64,000 nt of DNA, from assembly GCA_900696525.1 (NCBI GenBank), contig CAADGL010000021.1, forward strand, positions 124,001 to 188,000, written 5' to 3'. Below are positions 28,250-39,030 of the stretch, one piece after another. Each line of letters opens with the position of its first letter. The stretch's first letter is position 1. A model generated the notes under the pieces. It had not been told where the DNA came from and searched no databases. It saw nothing but the letters and a program-made list of their open reading frames with translations. Source of the stretch: an uncultured Planctomycetota bacterium. Its GTDB lineage: Bacteria; Planctomycetota; Phycisphaerae; UBA1845; Fen-1342. The position numbers and the translations under genes were made by a program.

Positions 28250-29341
28250 TCACCCCGCGTACACCCCCGGCGTCGCGACGTGCCGCGCCTTGCCGCCGCG
28301 GTCGCAGAGCGCCATCTTGCCCGGACGCCGAAGCGACGCGCCGCCGAACTGGCCGTCCTTGCGCAGGGCGTACAGGTTGAGGTCGAAATCGGGCTCGCCG
28401 GCGGCGTTGCGCAGGCGCTTCTCGGTCTTGGCGGCGACGCGGCGCAGGGCTTCCAGGCAGGCCTCCTCGGGCGAGCGCCCCTGCCGCATCAGCTCGACCG
28501 CGGTGAACGACGTGAGGTTCTGGAGGTTGGCCTCGCCGCGGCCGGTGCTGCCGGCGGCGCCGACGTCGTTATCGACGTAGAGGCCCGCGCCGATGATGGG
28601 CGAGTCTCCGACGCGTCCGGGAATCTTGTACGACAGGCCGGAGGTCGTCGTGCAGCCGGCGAGGTCGCCGCTCGCGGTCAGGCCGAGGCAGTTGATCGTG
28701 CCCCAGGTCCACTCGGGCGCCAGGACCGGCGCCGGGCGGCGCCGGTGCGCTCGGCTGGAGGGGTCGCCGCTCTCTTCGGGAGATAGCCAGTCGTCGTCCT
28801 TCGAGAGGTTCTCCTTCCAGCGCAGCCACTGGGCGCGGGCGGCGTCGGTGAGCAGGTCTTCTTCCTTGAAGCCGTGAGCCAGGGCGAAGCGTCGCGCCCC
28901 GTCGCCCACGAGCAGCACGTGGTCGGTGCGGCGCATCACGAGCAGCGCGACTTTCGACGGGTTGCGGATGCGCTCGATGGCCGCAACCGCGCCGGCCTTG
29001 TGCGTGGGCCCGTGCATGACGCTCGCGTCGAGCTGCACGACGCCTTCCTCGTTCGGCAGGCCGCCGAGACCGACGGAGTGATCGTTCGGGTCGTCCTCGA
29101 CCAGGGCGACGCCCGCCACGACCGCGTCGACCGGGTCGTTGCCGGCGAGCATCAGCTCCATCGCCTTTTCGCACGCGGCCAGGCCATTGCTGCTCGCGAC
29201 GACCAGCGGACGGCCCGCCGCTCCACCGGGCGCGCCCCCGGGCCCGGCGGCCTGCTGCCCCAGGGCGCGGCCCACGCCGCCCAGCCCCGCCGCCGCGACG
29301 CCGGCGGCCGCCTGCACGAAGTCACGACGGCTGATGTTCAT
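28250..29341 (-). CDS. N(4)-(beta-N-acetylglucosaminyl)-L-asparaginase, Tat signal
   Basis: MNISRRDFVQAAAGVAAAG Tat signal; TWGTINCLGLTASGDLAGCTTTSGLSYKIPGRVGDSPIIGAGLYVDNDVGAAGSTGRGE. Confidence 0.92.
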   Translation of the reverse strand: MNISRRDFVQAAAGVAAAGLGGVGRALGQQAAGPGGAPGGAAGRPLVVASSNGLAACEKAMELMLAGNDPVDAVVAGVALVEDDPNDHSVGLGGLPNEEGVVQLDASVMHGPTHKAGAVAAIERIRNPSKVALLVMRRTDHVLLVGDGARRFALAHGFKEEDLLTDAARAQWLRWKENLSKDDDWLSPEESGDPSSRAHRRRPAPVLAPEWTWGTINCLGLTASGDLAGCTTTSGLSYKIPGRVGDSPIIGAGLYVDNDVGAAGSTGRGEANLQNLTSFTAVELMRQGRSPEEACLEALRRVAAKTEKRLRNAAGEPDFDLNLYALRKDGQFGGASLRRPGKMALCDRGGKARHVATPGVYAG

Positions 29342-30165
29342 GCTGTCTCCAGTGATGAGCCCGGGGGCTCTGGGGAGCCAGGGGGGCCGGCCTTCGGACG
29401 GTCCTCATTCAAGCGTCCGGCCAACGCCTGGTTGACGAAATGCCCGATCATGGCGAGCACGAGCAGCGTCAGCGCGACGCCGGCCCAGAAGTACCACCAG
29501 GGCGCGCCGGTCTCGCTCAGGTCTTTGAGGTGCGCACCGACGTAAATCATCGCGGCGGTGCGCGGCGCCATGCCCAGCAGCGTCCCCAGCAGGTAGGCGC
29601 TCAGTGGCACCCGCGTCGCGGCCAGCACAAGGTTCGTCAGCGCAAAGGGCGAGTTCGGCGGCAGGCGCAGCAGCGTGATCGTCAGCAGCGTGCGCCAGTA
29701 TCCGACGCCCAGCAGGCTCTTGTGAATGGCCCGCGCCCGCGGGTGTTCGGCGATGACGCGCAGCGCCCGGTCGCCCGCGACCGTCCGCGCCACCACGTAG
29801 CCCAGCGCCGCCGCGCCGACGAATCCGGCCATCGCGGCCGGGAAGCCGAGGGCGAAACGGAAGGCGTAGCCGCCCATGAGCGCGGTGATGTGCGTCGGGA
29901 GCAGCGCGAGCCCGGCGGCGGCGACGAAGGCGGCGATGTAGAGCACCAGGCCGAGCTGCTGGTGGCTGAGCAGCCACTCGGCGGCGGGCTCGCGATAGGC
30001 CAGCAGGGCGAAACCACCGATCGGCGGCAGCGTGCAGGCGATGATCGCCAGGACGCTGAGCGACCCGAGCTGCCGCACGACGCCGCCGATGGTCGCGGTA
30101 GGCGGCGCGCTCGCGGACGTGCTCGCGGCGACGGCGGTGTCGTCGCGGTCGGACGAGGGGCTCAC
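29338..30165 (-). CDS. TVP38/TMEM64 family membrane protein
   Basis: Hydrophobic; GYAFRFALGFPAAMAGFVGAAALGYVVAR; LRLPPNSPFALTNLVLAATRVPLSAYLLGTLLGMAPRTAAMIYVGA. Confidence 0.8.
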   Translation of the reverse strand: MSPSSDRDDTAVAASTSASAPPTATIGGVVRQLGSLSVLAIIACTLPPIGGFALLAYREPAAEWLLSHQQLGLVLYIAAFVAAAGLALLPTHITALMGGYAFRFALGFPAAMAGFVGAAALGYVVARTVAGDRALRVIAEHPRARAIHKSLLGVGYWRTLLTITLLRLPPNSPFALTNLVLAATRVPLSAYLLGTLLGMAPRTAAMIYVGAHLKDLSETGAPWWYFWAGVALTLLVLAMIGHFVNQALAGRLNEDRPKAGPPGSPEPPGSSLETA

Positions 30166-31958
30166 CGGCTTTCCTGCGCCTGGTTGAGCATGGGATAGCG
30201 GAACCCGGAGACGCCCTGGCCGTTCTGGTTCGACACGCTGGTGATGACCTCGCCGCCCTTGACGATGAACAGCAGGCCCAGGACGGTGCCCTCGGCCTGA
30301 AGCTCAGCGCTCTGAATGGACGTGAAGTTGAGCGTGCCGTAGAAGCCGCTTGGCTCGCTCGGCGGGACGCCGGTGTAGTACAGCTCGATGTGCCGGCGGT
30401 CGCCGCGCTGCACGATGGCGTAGTAGCCGGCGAGCGGATAGGTCTCGCCCGACTCGCTGGCGCACTTGTACTGGTTGACGTTGAGGGCGACGTAGTTGAA
30501 GACCTGGCCGGCGAGCGTCAGCGCCTTCTTCGGGTAATACTGGAGCTGGAACAGGCGGTAGCCGCCGTCCGGTATCTTGATCTTCTCGACCTCTTCGTCG
30601 CCCAATTGCGGCTCGAGACGCGCGACCTCGCCCACGATCCGCCCGGACTTGAACATCCGGCCGGAGAGCTCGCCGCCGGCCCGGCGGATCGACGCCACCG
30701 ACATCTTGATCGGCAGGTTGTCGACGTCGCCCGTGCGGCCGTGCTCGATCGCGTCGATGAAGCGGAAGGCGCCGCTGGCCTGCACCTGGGCCCGTTCCTC
30801 GGGTGAGAGCAGCGGCGGCAGCGGCGGGGCGGCCTTGGCCAGGTACTGCGGCTCGGCCTGCCGCAGGGCGGCGCGGGCGTGCCGGCGGTACTCGACGAAG
30901 CGCGGCTTGAACTCCTGCGGCGTTTCGAAATAGGCGTCGATGACGTTCTCATCGACGGACAGGCGGAAGTTGTTGTCGGGTTCGACGATGCGCGGCTTGC
31001 CGCTGATGCGGTGCTCGACGTTCGCCAGGATGATCGGCGTGACCTGCATCGGCCGGCCGCCCGGGCCGTCGCCGACCAGGCGGATCATGGTCGGGCGGAA
31101 CAGGTGCGCCAGGATGCCGCCGTCGCGATCGGCGGCTGAGGGCCGCAGCTCCAGGCGGGTGACGACGAACTTGTTGCCGGGGAGCGGCGCGACGGGCTTG
31201 TCGGTGGAGAAAGGCGGGTAGGGCTTGTCGCGGGTCGGGACGTCGGCGCGGTAGCGGGCGGCGACGGGCTCGGTCTGCTCCCACCAGTTCTGGACCGCCA
31301 GCCCGTCCTTCGTGCCGTCGCCTTTCTTGTCGCGGTAGACCGCGGGAGTGGACTCCCACTGCACGGTGTTGTTGGTGAAGAAGACCCAATCGGTGAAGCT
31401 GGGGTAAACGCTGGCCAGCGAAGTCTGCGAGCTCATGCTGCCGGCGCTGAGCTGGTTGACGAGCCAGACGGTGAAGTCATCGCTGCGCAGCCAGAGCGCG
31501 CGGCGCTCGAAGAACGCCAGGTCCGGCCGGTCCGGATGCTTCTCGTCGGGCTGGCGCTCGTAGCGCGAGAACATCAGCACGCGCCCGCCGATCGGCAGCA
31601 TCAGCACGCAGATGACCATCACGCCCACGCAGATCTGCGCGTTGATGAAGCCCAGCACGCCTGCCCCGGCCCAGTCCACGGCCGCGGGCAAGGTCACGTT
31701 CCCGCGGATCAGGTTGTCGGCCGCGACGCGCAGGCCCGTCAGGCTGAGCACGAACAGCAGCAGCAGCGCCGTCGGCTCGGCGTAGGCCGGGTGAAAGGAC
31801 TTCGCCAGCAGCCCGGCCACCGGCTCGAAAAAACCGAAGGCGATCAGGGCCGCCACGATCGTGCAGCCGAGGTTGATGATCCCGCTGAAGAATCCGAAAA
31901 CGGTCTGCATGAAGGTGATCAGCAGCACCAGGATCAGAGAGATCAGATTCAACGCCAT
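30162..31958 (-). CDS. CvpA-like membrane protein with large C-terminal domain of unknown function
   Basis: MALNLISLILVLLITFMQTVFGFFSGIINLGCTIVAALIAFGFFEPVAGLL; multiple TM helices then ~430 aa soluble part. Confidence 0.65.
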   Translation of the reverse strand: MALNLISLILVLLITFMQTVFGFFSGIINLGCTIVAALIAFGFFEPVAGLLAKSFHPAYAEPTALLLLFVLSLTGLRVAADNLIRGNVTLPAAVDWAGAGVLGFINAQICVGVMVICVLMLPIGGRVLMFSRYERQPDEKHPDRPDLAFFERRALWLRSDDFTVWLVNQLSAGSMSSQTSLASVYPSFTDWVFFTNNTVQWESTPAVYRDKKGDGTKDGLAVQNWWEQTEPVAARYRADVPTRDKPYPPFSTDKPVAPLPGNKFVVTRLELRPSAADRDGGILAHLFRPTMIRLVGDGPGGRPMQVTPIILANVEHRISGKPRIVEPDNNFRLSVDENVIDAYFETPQEFKPRFVEYRRHARAALRQAEPQYLAKAAPPLPPLLSPEERAQVQASGAFRFIDAIEHGRTGDVDNLPIKMSVASIRRAGGELSGRMFKSGRIVGEVARLEPQLGDEEVEKIKIPDGGYRLFQLQYYPKKALTLAGQVFNYVALNVNQYKCASESGETYPLAGYYAIVQRGDRRHIELYYTGVPPSEPSGFYGTLNFTSIQSAELQAEGTVLGLLFIVKGGEVITSVSNQNGQGVSGFRYPMLNQAQESR

Positions 31959-31962
31959 GTTC

Positions 31963-33666
31963 TCACCTCGTCGCCTTCTGCGCCGCCCCGCCCGACGGAG
32001 CCGCCGGCGCGCCTCCCGCCGACGCCGCGGGCGGCCGCGTGGCCCGCACGACCTCTTCGATGCTCGTGATGCCATCGAAGACCTTTTGCAGCGCCTGCTG
32101 CTGGAGCCCCGGCACGCCCTGCTTGAGACAGTGCGCCTGGATGTCGTTGATCGACCCGCCCGCCGCCAGCACCTGCCGCAGGCCGTCGTCAACCGTGACG
32201 ATGTGGAAGATGCCGGTGCGCCCCGTGTACCCCGTGCCCTGGCAGGCCTGGCACAGGACCGGGTTCCCGTGCTTGTCGAACTGCGGCTCCGGCGGCCGGT
32301 AGAGGACCTTGTCCCCCGGAAGGTTGAGTTTGCGGAGGGTGGCGGCGTCCGGCTTGTAGGGCGTCTTGCAGGCCATGCACAGGACGCGCACCAGCCGCTG
32401 GTGCAGCACCGCCAGCAACCCGCGGGCCGCGAGCTTGCTGTCGCCGATACCCGCCAGGCCGCGCTTGAACGCGTCCCAGATATCGGCGGCGGGCATGCCG
32501 ACGTAGACCTTCTGTTTCTCGACGGCGGCCCTGGCCGCGGCGGGCATGCTGCCGCGCTCGCGCAGCTCGGGCAGCACGATGACGTTCGGATCGGACCGCA
32601 CGACCTTCTGGAGCTCGCCCGTGAACGTGCGGTCGTCGGCGGGCTCGAAGAGCCGCTGGGTAATGTTGTCGACGTCCAGCTCGCGCACGTACTCCAGCAT
32701 CTGGATATTGAGCAGGAAGGCGTCGTGGCTCCGCGCCAGGGCGTACACCGTCGTCGTCAGCCCGCCGCCCTTCGGCGCCGTCACCAGCACCAGGCCCTTG
32801 TCCGCGTCCATGAAGTGCCGGACCTGCTCCATCTGCTTTTCGGTGAAGCCCAGGTCGGCGACCTTGAAGCCCCTCTCGCGCCCGATCACCCGCACGGCCA
32901 GACGCTCGCCCGCCGTCGAGCCGTTGCTCTGGATCGTCAGCTCGTACTTGTTCTCGCCGATGGCGGCCTGGAGCTTGCCCATCTGCGGCTTGCGGCGTTC
33001 CTCCACGTTGAGGCCGGCGAGCTGCTTGAGAAAGAGCAGGATGTTGTCGCCCTCGGCACGACCGATCGGCTCTCGCTCGGAGACGACGCCATCGACGGAG
33101 TAGCTGATCTGGCACGCCTGACCGGCTGGAGAGAGCTGCGCCAGGTTGGCGCGGCGCCACAGCATGTCGAAGAGCAGGTCCTGTGTCAGCCGGTAGCGCT
33201 CGCGGCCTTCGTCGTCCTCGGGAATCCGCACCGTCTTGCGGTCCGCGCCGACCAGCTTCACGCGCTCCTTGACTTCCACCTGCTTGGCCTTCTTCTTTCC
33301 GGCGAGGCCCTCGGTCATAACCTTCTTGAGGTGCGCCGCCGTCAGCACCTTGTCCTCCGGCTCAACCAGGCCGTTGCGGTGGATGACGTACGACAGCGAG
33401 ACCGCGAGCTGCACGACGGCGTAGCCGCCGAGCGCCCCCCAGAAATTCGGCACGAACAGCAGCAGGCACAGGGCCAGCAGCCCGCCGAAGACGTTCACCA
33501 TGTTCCAGATCGCGCGGTACGTGTTGACGGCGATGGCGTCCTTGTCCGCCCACTGGGCGTAGAACGCCCAGACGGCGATCAGCACGACCACCGCCACCAG
33601 CTTCAGCGGGTGAACGTAAACCGACGACTCGGGCAACTGCGCCAGCAGATCGGGCGATGCCAGCAT
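31963..33666 (-). CDS. membrane-anchored GspE/PilB-like protein with degenerate Walker A
   Basis: N-terminal TM helices; APKGGGLTTTVYALAR in place of GPTGSGKTTT; RSDPNVIVLPELRERG; CMACKTPY...CQACQGTGYTGRTGIF zinc motif. Confidence 0.8.
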   Translation of the reverse strand: MLASPDLLAQLPESSVYVHPLKLVAVVVLIAVWAFYAQWADKDAIAVNTYRAIWNMVNVFGGLLALCLLLFVPNFWGALGGYAVVQLAVSLSYVIHRNGLVEPEDKVLTAAHLKKVMTEGLAGKKKAKQVEVKERVKLVGADRKTVRIPEDDEGRERYRLTQDLLFDMLWRRANLAQLSPAGQACQISYSVDGVVSEREPIGRAEGDNILLFLKQLAGLNVEERRKPQMGKLQAAIGENKYELTIQSNGSTAGERLAVRVIGRERGFKVADLGFTEKQMEQVRHFMDADKGLVLVTAPKGGGLTTTVYALARSHDAFLLNIQMLEYVRELDVDNITQRLFEPADDRTFTGELQKVVRSDPNVIVLPELRERGSMPAAARAAVEKQKVYVGMPAADIWDAFKRGLAGIGDSKLAARGLLAVLHQRLVRVLCMACKTPYKPDAATLRKLNLPGDKVLYRPPEPQFDKHGNPVLCQACQGTGYTGRTGIFHIVTVDDGLRQVLAAGGSINDIQAHCLKQGVPGLQQQALQKVFDGITSIEEVVRATRPPAASAGGAPAAPSGGAAQKATR

Positions 33667-34118: not shown

Positions 34119-35366
34119 TCAGGCCCGACTGGCCAGCGGGTGCTTGAGCAACACGGCGCTCGGGACCACGGGGAACTGCAAGCGGACGCGGTAAACGTCG
34201 AACTGCCGCCCATCCCAGCCCAGACGCTCGAACGCGTATTCGATCAGTCGGGTGTAGCGAGGGACTTCCGGTGTGCGCACAACCTCCGGGCCGCAGCCGA
34301 GGTAGCGAACGCCTTCGTGAACAGGAAGCCGATCGGACTCCTCATAGTGGCAGTCCAGCTCCGCGGCGAACAGCTCACTGAAGAGCTCCACGTGCGGCGT
34401 GATTCGACCGAAAAGCTCGCGGTGGATGATCAGATCGAAGATCGATGCCTCGCAGGGTGTACGCATGCGGGCCCTGACAACGAACTGCCAATCGCGTTCG
34501 GCGCGGTAGCGCGACCCGATGCCACGCACGGTTTCACCGATCATGCACGTATGGGAGGCGGTGTTGCCAACCGGAGCCTCCGCTAACTCGTATTCGACCG
34601 CTCCGCGCGGTCCGCTGACCCGCTGAAAGCGCGGCAGCAGCTTCGAGCAGAACTGGCTCAACAGCGGGAGGTCGGCTCCTCCGGGCTGGGACGGAGCGCT
34701 CGGATCAAGGGGCTCACGCGCGAACGACGTACGCAGCTCCCCCACATCGTTAACGCTGTACAGTCGAGCGATCCGCCACGGGACATGGGGGCGAATCCGA
34801 CGCAGGTTGACAAAACCGCGGATGACGGCAACGTCGAGCAGGTCCTCGTTCGCCGAACCGTTAACGAGATAGGTGTCCAGCTGGGTCGCCGCCTGCACAC
34901 CCCAGAGGTAACTGTTAGCCTGGAACGCCTGCTTGCGGTGCTCCATGTCGGCTCTTGCGGCATTCTCCCTGACGTACCCTGCCAACATCATGCCGAACGA
35001 CTTGCGGTCACCGGCATGGACCTGGATCAACGCGCGGAAATCCTGGAAGGCCTTCCGGGCCGCCTCGATGGACGCGCGCGGCGCATGGCAGCGCGAGGCC
35101 GCACGCAGGAAGATGTTGACGCCGGCGCTGCCCGGAAGGACGCGGGCCGCGGCAAACGGATCGTTTCCTTCGATGAACTTGCTGATCTTCCAGGCCAGCG
35201 TCCGATCGATGCCAAGCACCTCCGCAAGCTGGCTACGGCGTGAAAGCCGCGAGACGGGGAGCGGGTCCAGCACGTCGGCGAACGCACTGCGCAATCGGGC
35301 GATAACCTGGGTGGCATGGCTCGCGAACGAAAGGTCGCCGTCGGCTTTCGAGGCGCTCTTCTGCAT
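34119..35366 (-). CDS. hypothetical protein with possible N-terminal helix-turn-helix
   Basis: MQKSASKADGDLSFAS...RRSQLAEVLGIDRTLAWKISKFIEGNDPFAAARVLPG; no recognisable family; ORF may start at 35420. Confidence 0.6.
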   Translation of the reverse strand: MQKSASKADGDLSFASHATQVIARLRSAFADVLDPLPVSRLSRRSQLAEVLGIDRTLAWKISKFIEGNDPFAAARVLPGSAGVNIFLRAASRCHAPRASIEAARKAFQDFRALIQVHAGDRKSFGMMLAGYVRENAARADMEHRKQAFQANSYLWGVQAATQLDTYLVNGSANEDLLDVAVIRGFVNLRRIRPHVPWRIARLYSVNDVGELRTSFAREPLDPSAPSQPGGADLPLLSQFCSKLLPRFQRVSGPRGAVEYELAEAPVGNTASHTCMIGETVRGIGSRYRAERDWQFVVRARMRTPCEASIFDLIIHRELFGRITPHVELFSELFAAELDCHYEESDRLPVHEGVRYLGCGPEVVRTPEVPRYTRLIEYAFERLGWDGRQFDVYRVRLQFPVVPSAVLLKHPLASRA

Positions 35367-35372
35367 GCCGTC

Positions 35373-35401
35373 ACAATACCGTCTATAAACACATGTGTCA
35401 A
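35373..35401 (-). promoter_or_regulatory. candidate sigma70-type promoter for the 34119..35366 gene
   Basis: On minus strand TTGACA (35401-35396), 17-nt spacer, TATTGT (35378-35373). Confidence 0.45.
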
Positions 35402-35442
35402 CATCACGGTTAGATATCATGTAAGTGCATGTTATTAAATAA

Positions 35443-35470
35443 GCTAGATATCTCTGTAGAACTATCTAGC
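35443..35470. promoter_or_regulatory. perfect inverted repeat, candidate operator
   Basis: GCTAGATA (35443-35450)/TATCTAGC (35463-35470), 12-nt spacer, in an AT-rich divergent intergenic region. Confidence 0.55.
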
Positions 35471-35488
35471 ACGGTTTTCAAAAACGTA

Positions 35489-35517
35489 TTGACAAACCAG
35501 CCGGACGGCCGTAAAAT
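35489..35517 (+). promoter_or_regulatory. candidate sigma70-type promoter for the 35633..36790 gene
   Basis: TTGACA (35489-35494), exactly 17-nt spacer, TAAAAT (35512-35517). Confidence 0.65.
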
Positions 35518-35632
35518 CGGACCTATTCGTGGTCAGCCTCGTGACCTTGCGCTGACCGAGTCGGCGGACGCACGCTGCGTTCGCCGGTCGGCGATCCAGG
35601 CTAGGGCTCGAAAAAAAAGGGAGGATCTTGAG

Positions 35633-36790
35633 ATGAAGCACGGTGATCGGATTGGGCGATCGGGCCGCGCCTGGTGGGCTGGCCATTCGGGAGCAATGAT
35701 CTGTGTTTGGTTTGTGTCAGTCGCAACGGCGACCACTATCGAGACCGTCAGTGTCGGCAACCGCGGCAACACGGCCTACCCCAACCCCTGGGGCGACATC
35801 GGCGCCGTGGACTACGACTACAACATCGGCAAGTACGAGGTGACGGCCGGCCAGTACACCGACTTCCTCAACGCCGTTGCCGCCACGGACACCTACGCGC
35901 TGTACAACACGAGCATGTGGACGAGCGGCTTCGGATGCAAGATTCAACGCGTGGGCGACGAGGGCAGCTACACGTACAGCGTTGCTCCGGACTGGGCGAA
36001 CCGTCCGGTGAACCTCGTGAGCTGGGGCGACGCGGCCCGGTTTGCCAACTGGTTACACAACGGCCAGCCGACGGGCCCTCAGGACCTGACCACTACCGAG
36101 GACGGCTCGTACTTTCTGAATGGCGCGATGACCAACGCGGAACTCGCGGCGGTGGTGCGCAAGCCGGATGCCACCTGGGTGATCCCGACCGTCCACGAGT
36201 GGTTCAAGGCCGCCCATCACAAGAACGACGGCGTGACCGGCAACTACTTCGAGTTTCCCACGAGCACCGACGACATGCCGAGCAATCTGCTCAGCGACCC
36301 CGACCCCGACCCCGGGAACAATGCGACGTTCAAGGTCGGCAACCAATGGACGATCGGCCCCCCGTACTACCGGACGGAGGCTGGCGCGCACGAGAATTCT
36401 GCCAGCCCCTATGGCACGTTCGACCAGGGCGGCAACATCTATGAGTGGACAGAAACGCTCGTGGGGAGCGAGAATCGTGGCGTTCGGGGCGGAACCTTCA
36501 ACGATACCGTGGACCTCCTGCGCGCGTCACGCCCGTTTGTTGGCAGCCTGCCCGATCAGAACAACCTCTTGGTCGGGTTCCGAGTAGCTCTGATTCCGGG
36601 CAAGATGGCCCTGCCCGGCGACCTGAACGGTGACGGCTGCGTCAACCAGTCAGACCTCGGCATCCTGCTGAGCGACTTCGGCTGTACCGGCGGCGGCTGC
36701 GCCGGCGACATCGACGGCGATGGCGACACCGACCAGGCCGACCTCGGCATCCTGCTGAGCAACTTCAACCAGGGGCCGAACTGCCCGTAA
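35633..36790 (+). CDS. secreted SUMF1/formylglycine-generating-enzyme-like domain protein with paired dockerin-like repeats
   Basis: YDYNIGKYEVTAGQYTDFLNAVA; WVIPTVHEWFKAAHH; FDQGGNIYEWTETL..RGVRGGTF; GDLNGDGCVNQSDLGILLSDFG / GDIDGDGDTDQADLGILLSNF. Confidence 0.85.
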   Translation: MKHGDRIGRSGRAWWAGHSGAMICVWFVSVATATTIETVSVGNRGNTAYPNPWGDIGAVDYDYNIGKYEVTAGQYTDFLNAVAATDTYALYNTSMWTSGFGCKIQRVGDEGSYTYSVAPDWANRPVNLVSWGDAARFANWLHNGQPTGPQDLTTTEDGSYFLNGAMTNAELAAVVRKPDATWVIPTVHEWFKAAHHKNDGVTGNYFEFPTSTDDMPSNLLSDPDPDPGNNATFKVGNQWTIGPPYYRTEAGAHENSASPYGTFDQGGNIYEWTETLVGSENRGVRGGTFNDTVDLLRASRPFVGSLPDQNNLLVGFRVALIPGKMALPGDLNGDGCVNQSDLGILLSDFGCTGGGCAGDIDGDGDTDQADLGILLSNFNQGPNCP

Positions 36791-38583: not shown

Positions 38584-39030
38584 ATGGCAAGTCAACGGCT
38601 CACCAGAAGGTTCAGCGTCGCGGCGATTGCCGCGCTGCTGCTCGCCGCGGTTGGCGCGAACGCGCAGTACGACCTGTCCTGGTTCACGGTCGACGGCGGC
38701 GGCGCGATGTACAGCACGGGCGGCCTGTTTTCGCTCGGCGCCACGATCGGCCAGGCCGACGCGGCCAGCTCCCCGGCGCTGACGGGCGGTCAGTTCTCGC
38801 TCGTCGGAGGCTTCTGGGCCGCCGGGGCCTCGCCCTGCACACGGCCGGGCGACCTCGACAGCGACGGCGACGTCGACCAGGCCGACCTGGGCATCCTGCT
38901 TTCCGCGTACGGCGCATGCCCAGGCGAACCGTTCTATCACGCCGGCGCGGGCGGCCTGGCGGGCGACCCGTGCGTTACGCAGGCCGATCTGGGCGTGTTG
39001 CTGGCGGCGTATGGGCAATCGTGCCCGTGA
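38584..39030 (+). CDS. small secreted protein with paired dockerin-like repeats
   Basis: Signal peptide; FTVDGGGAMYSTGGLFSLGATIGQADA..LTGGQFSLVGGFWAAG; GDLDSDGDVDQADLGILLSAYG / CVTQADLGVLLAAYG. Confidence 0.8.
   Translation: MASQRLTRRFSVAAIAALLLAAVGANAQYDLSWFTVDGGGAMYSTGGLFSLGATIGQADAASSPALTGGQFSLVGGFWAAGASPCTRPGDLDSDGDVDQADLGILLSAYGACPGEPFYHAGAGGLAGDPCVTQADLGVLLAAYGQSCP

Follow-up and report, generated by a model that had tools for sequence, protein, structure and literature searches.

The window, a 64,000-nucleotide stretch of DNA from an uncultured Planctomycetota bacterium of the class Phycisphaerae, carries on its minus strand two adjacent genes for membrane proteins, P0001 and P0002. 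In the original prediction, these genes were described as a repurposed two-gene system consisting of a GspE/PilB-like pseudo-ATPase and a CvpA-like membrane protein. The features of the pair are listed below with the evidence for each.

31963..33666 (-): P0001, a TM-anchored PilB/GspE-like pseudo-ATPase of 567 aa (translation, PF00437, Foldseek, family orthologues)
33373..33609 (-): three predicted TM helices of P0001, residues 20-98 (AlphaFold2 model, hydropathy, invariant columns)
32749..32778 (-): degenerate Walker A of P0001, APKGGGLTTT, Lys replaced by Leu303 (DNA read, alignments)
32677..32703 (-): degenerate Asp box of P0001, QMLEYVREL (canonical ...EDP[IV]EY), first Glu retained (alignments)
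32557..32592 (-): altered Walker B of P0001, DPNVIVLPELRE (canonical DPDVIxxGEIRD), Gly replaced by Pro, Glu retained (alignments)
32242..32379 (-): tetracysteine (Zn-type) region of P0001, C430-C475, with a class-typical YRPPEPxxDKxGNP insertion (conserved columns)
30162..31958 (-): P0002, a CvpA-like membrane protein of 598 aa (PF02674 match below the cut-off, conserved position)
31599..31955 (-): four-helix CvpA-like membrane bundle of P0002, residues 2-120 (model, hydropathy)
30165..31598 (-): beta-rich soluble tail of P0002 (model; without a convincing PDB structural match)

P0001 is a member of the type II/IV secretion ATPase superfamily and exceeds the curated cut-off of PF00437 across the full domain (residues 159-541, E=4.5e-49, 167.5 bits against 24.9, profile positions 10-370 of 370). 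Scores against TIGR02533 (195.5 bits, cut-off 630.25) and TIGR02538 (177.4 bits, cut-off 675.65) are far below equivalog level, and the score against the PilT/PilU family TIGR01420 (40.3 bits) is below its cut-off of 319.1. When the P0001 model was compared with the PDB using Foldseek, the top matches were Thermus PilF/PilB, Geobacter PilB and Vibrio EpsE (5oiu, 5it5, 5tsh, 1p9w), and a sequence profile search concurs with this PilB/GspE fold. The GspE-like layout that had been read from the sequence is borne out by both the profile match and the model.

Most of the motifs expected of a catalytic GspE/PilB ATPase are degenerate in P0001. The P-loop DNA is unambiguous (GTG ACG GCG CCG AAG GGC GGC GGG CTG ACG ACG ACG, V-T-A-P-K-G-G-G-L-T-T-T) and places the Leu303 codon, at 32760-32758, in the position of the Walker A lysine, which confirms the predicted lysine loss at the DNA level. 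The Walker B region is also altered, as had been noticed, with PE in place of GE; the Asp box reads LEYVRE and the His box is lost. The P0001-type paralogue of this class is without the residues for ordinary ATP hydrolysis. The predicted C-terminal tetracysteine motif is present as C430-x2-C433 and C472-x2-C475, and all four cysteines are invariant within the GTDB family of the window.

The N-terminal TM helices that had been proposed are three in number, as supported by hydropathy and by the AlphaFold2 model (mean pLDDT 81.5), in which helices at residues 20-47, 51-71 and 75-98 are followed by a linker and the PilB/GspE core. The membrane region contains a conserved WxDKD...VNTxRxxWN loop motif and an HRNxLV motif, with W39, D41, D43, V47, N48, W54, H96, R97 and N98 invariant in the family. 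By the positive-inside rule, the WxDKD...VNTxR loop and the HRN motif are probably cytosolic, which would place the ATPase-like domain of P0001 in the cytosol.

The ATG of P0002 lies at 31958, 4 nt past the P0001 stop, rather than 5 nt as originally given, and the tail of the protein comprises about 480 rather than about 430 residues. In the model (pLDDT 81.1), membrane helices at residues 2-19, 23-51, 57-83 and 92-120 precede the beta-rich tail, for which a fold search returned no PDB match at E<=0.001. The N-terminus scores 21.6 bits against CvpA (PF02674), below the curated cut-off of 29.3. Of 21 close relatives, 17 match this profile weakly, and four orthologues at a greater distance exceed the cut-off (30.3-45.3 bits). 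Outside the class, the CvpA-like partner is mostly short (185-273 aa) and without such a tail, indicating that the class to which the window belongs has elaborated the protein by a long beta-rich tail.

The gene after P0002 differs between relatives. In the window, it encodes a VTT-domain (TVP38/TMEM64/DedA-like) membrane protein (29338-30165, minus strand) whose GTG start overlaps the P0002 stop (GTGA), and this overlap suggests coupled translation of the two genes in this genome. In line with the earlier statement that the window has no further T2SS/T4P genes, P0001 was the only PF00437 protein found on its contig (C21), and no PF00482 gene was found there. On another contig of the same genome (C11; L180:6955-10392), a Tad-type ATPase gene with two T2SSF genes behind it was recognized by sequence. 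Separately, the window product of 35429-36790 (plus strand) was seen by eye to combine a formylglycine-generating-enzyme-like region with C-terminal dockerin-type repeats (GDLNGDGCVNQSDLGILLSDF), and the protein of 38584-39030 ends in similar repeats.

P0001 or an orthologue is present in 26 of the 27 genomes sampled from the GTDB family of the window, its own genome included, and P0002 or an orthologue in all but one. None of the 25 aligned sequences of this family has the Walker A lysine; Leu, Met, Ile or Val stands in its position. Across the class, the full-length P0001 profile, which includes the membrane region, matches 239 of 299 genomes at E<1e-100, and the P0002 profile matches 286 of 299. 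An alignment of planctomycete homologues at the lysine position, proposed earlier as a check, showed that the lysine is missing in 71 of 71 distinct orthologues from the class; among orthologues from 20 GTDB-like families it is replaced by Leu, Val, Ile, Arg, Ser, Thr, Gln, Ala or Met. A local mutation or assembly error at Walker A is rejected, given the loss in dozens of independent genomes. The recurrence of the protein, the lysine loss and the CvpA-like pairing in that many genomes is beyond chance.

The ATPase-like domain is under strong purifying selection, with dN/dS values (Nei-Gojobori, three same-genus pairs) of about 0.09, 0.08 and 0.19, and mean column identity across the family alignment of P0001 is 62%. 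These low ratios indicate that selection maintains the domain for a role that is not ordinary catalysis. The Walker A Thr/Ser (82/85) and the first Asp-box Glu (83/85) persist in most lysine-less orthologues, as does the acidic residue of Walker B in many; 81 of 85 have lost the His-box histidine. Given these retained residues, the lysine-less proteins may still bind nucleotide. Lys or Arg occupies P-loop position 3 in 27 of the 85, the APKGGGL of the window included. A conserved relocated P-loop lysine was considered as a general trait and dismissed; it is seen in f2/f3/f17/f19/f21-type genomes without holding generally.

The proposed two-gene pairing is well kept: the CvpA-like gene immediately follows that of the pseudo-ATPase in 43 of 44 loci of the class. 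The pairing is also old, as is the membrane-anchored pseudo-ATPase itself. What the original prediction missed is a third partner. In 36 of the 46 same-class loci, the gene immediately upstream of the pair encodes a PilT-family ATPase (about 376-419 aa); in 2 further loci, one intact GspE separates PilT from the pair. Every operonic PilT retains the Walker A lysine, the Asp box, the Walker B Glu and the His-box histidine (GxTGSGKSTT, EDPIE, GEMRD and a TIHAS-type His box), and the two tested against TIGR01420 scored 382.6 and 398.1 bits, above the cut-off of 319.1. The PilT and pseudo-ATPase genes are 2-3 nt apart or overlap in several lysine-less genomes, which points to coupled translation. 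PilT is not adjacent to the pair in a few same-class loci (e.g., L118, L119, L123, L124 and L169) and in the window, where the pair has lost its PilT neighbor. The PilT orthologue of this genome is encoded on a separate contig (C5:29646-30827) and shares 83% identity with a relative's operonic PilT; C13 carries another PilT, of the ordinary kind. In a PilT tree, which contains long branches, the operonic PilTs and this copy split from other paralogues with a support of 97. The position taken by PilT in relatives is occupied in the window by a 433-aa protein (34119-35420, minus strand) without a Pfam match. An upstream conserved cluster (c2) was left out of the module, being HisF-like as judged by reading its sequence, without a domain search.

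In a phylum-wide search, full-length P0001-type matches were found in many other Planctomycetota families; a search of all GTDB r220 species used family-specific patterns only. The lysine is kept in 26 rows of membrane-anchored orthologues from elsewhere in the phylum, and is replaced by Leu in f73, f76, f82, f88, f93, f94 and f96. Fully intact motifs (e.g., GPTGAGKSTT, EDPVEY, GEIRD and H) occur in the large family f44, in f50, f83 and f95, and in part of f84. These TM-anchored proteins with intact ATPase motifs (f44 and others, e.g., L213, L215 and L218) represent an unusual membrane-anchored motor architecture. Two of the 26 rows are intermediates, G570 (GPKESGKTTT) and G553 (TLPEQGKTTT), which have the lysine together with an eroded Asp box, Walker B and His box. 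Homologs with an intact GKT had been named in advance as a sign of a local mutation in the window; such homologs do exist in other families, but the whole sampled class is without the lysine, and therefore the intact copies look ancestral. When a P0001-family tree was computed with the motif columns removed, two changes of the lysine state were required, and long branches were seen in the lysine-less clades. Two independent losses are not taken as established, since the AU test does not reject a single loss (p=0.48). The intact-motif members are nearest to the canonical GspE outgroup, indicating that the family most likely descends from an active ATPase with its own membrane anchor. It probably began in this form, and catalysis was then lost in one or two events. 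Among loci from other families, PilT is the immediate upstream neighbor in 13 of 14 that are without the lysine, compared with 8 of 26 lysine-bearing loci. This association between PilT linkage and lysine loss is suggestive only, resting on one or two losses on the tree, and the linkage is not exclusive to dead copies, as those 8 lysine-keeping orthologues show.

We propose a planctomycete motor module made up of PilT, the membrane-anchored PilB/GspE paralogue and the CvpA-like membrane protein, the last two of which are encoded at this locus. The paralogue would be retained as a non-catalytic ring or adaptor, fixed to the inner membrane by its own three-helix anchor, which would stand in for GspL/PilM-type recruitment. 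There, it may dock and position the catalytically intact cytosolic PilT ring, with PilT supplying the energy and the CvpA-like protein acting as a membrane or periplasmic partner. The machine served could be a type IV filament or T2SS-like. GspF/PilC platform proteins were found in all 149 class genomes sampled, and filament machines are therefore available. In Vibrio cholerae, it has been shown that the Walker-A-dead PilT(K136A) still supports retraction when PilU is active, and that this variant still binds PilU and PilC (PMC6821130, PMC6762196). In the Dot/Icm system, the cytosolic DotB hexamer is recruited onto membrane-anchored DotO (PMC7029142). We give the reading of P0001 as a catalytically inactive ring or adaptor that docks PilT at the inner membrane about an even chance of being right.

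A different role, which we regard as possible but rather unlikely, is that of a regulator of extension or secretion motors. In that case, the dead subunit would tune extension by entering mixed hexamers with intact PilB/GspE or by competing with it for the platform, and the PilT linkage would reflect shared regulation of retraction. The genome of the window indeed has four full-length intact GspE/PilB genes. In addition, an intact-motif GspE lies between PilT and the pseudo-ATPase in G155 and G179 (L166:5857-7605 and L167:5887-7599), and in G021 the PilT of the module is directly preceded by an MshEN-domain GspE of the c-di-GMP type (L066:6722-8419). However, an intact GspE beside the module is rare whereas PilT linkage is common, and a protein held in the membrane by a TM anchor would mix less freely with cytosolic subunits. 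The GspE of G155 carries an N-terminal FHA domain.

The module may also have left pili and secretion altogether for an envelope function tied to the CvpA-like protein, in which ATP hydrolysis by the PilT-family member moves or gates an inner-membrane complex. The CvpA-like partner is the most constant neighbor (43/44) and bears a large beta-rich tail in the class, and a pilin or secretin gene was not recognized in the module. This reading is nevertheless unlikely in our view: the operonic PilT belongs to the PilT/PilU family by the curated cut-off, and GspF/PilC homologues are universal in the sampled class.

WNK kinases use a relocated basic residue for nucleotide, and P0001 might similarly be a nucleotide sensor or atypical ATPase, with binding or slow hydrolysis via the basic residue of APKGGG-, GPKESG- or GPRESG-type loops. 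The basic residue at position 3 in 27 of 85 lysine-less orthologues, the presence of both lysines in the intermediate G570 and the retention of the Walker A Thr/Ser and first Asp-box Glu would fit this. Yet the extra basic residue varies even in the family of the window (APPGG, APSGH, APAAS, ATPAS), and the His-box histidine is lost in nearly all, which makes this reading improbable. That P0001 is a functionless, decaying former ATPase is scarcely credible: most catalytic motifs are lost and branches in the lysine-less clades are long, but the low dN/dS, the column identity, the open frames and the wide retention in the class already contradict it.

If P0001 does dock PilT, a further and quite doubtful step would be a retraction-type motor of the Planctomycetota, in which the anchored pseudo-PilB ring permanently docks PilT, the CvpA-like protein couples it to the envelope via the periplasm, and the whole could power the pilus-like fibres and macromolecule uptake that set the phylum apart. 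Pilus-like fibres and dextran uptake have been described in Planctomycetes (PMC5394234), and their link to the module is speculation. The genes offer a genetic handle on motors that may serve these unexplained fibres and uptake. Natural, ancient pseudo-enzymes of the PilB/GspE superfamily are apparently undescribed within the literature searched; nothing relevant turned up for the operon itself, for PilT together with CvpA or for a type IV pilus pseudo-ATPase. The Vibrio experiments showed that a lysine-dead ring can be an adaptor for an active one, and part of the Planctomycetota seems to have fixed such an arrangement. Because intact and dead members of the motor domain occur in one phylum and one tree, the transition from motor to scaffold is open to direct study.

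Compared with the PilB/PilF/GspE (EpsE) ATPases, P0001 shares the fold, the domain order and the tetracysteine region, but it has three N-terminal TM helices in place of the cytosolic N-domain, is without the catalytic Lys and the His box, and has PE instead of GE in Walker B. P0002 shares the four-helix N-terminal membrane bundle of CvpA/colicin V production protein (PF02674), and several of its orthologues exceed the cut-off, whereas P0002 itself is below it and carries the tail of about 480 residues. The engineered PilT(K136A)/PilU pair (PMC6821130, PMC6762196) resembles the module in that a Walker-A-dead ring is encoded alongside an active PilT-family ATPase. In the planctomycete module, however, the dead protein is a natural, ancient and membrane-anchored relative of PilB/GspE, PilT is the active partner, and the interaction is one that we infer. 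With Dot/Icm DotB-DotO (PMC7029142), the proposed arrangement would share the recruitment of a soluble PilT/VirB11-like hexamer to a membrane-anchored ATPase assembly, although DotO is VirB4-like and not PilB/GspE-like.
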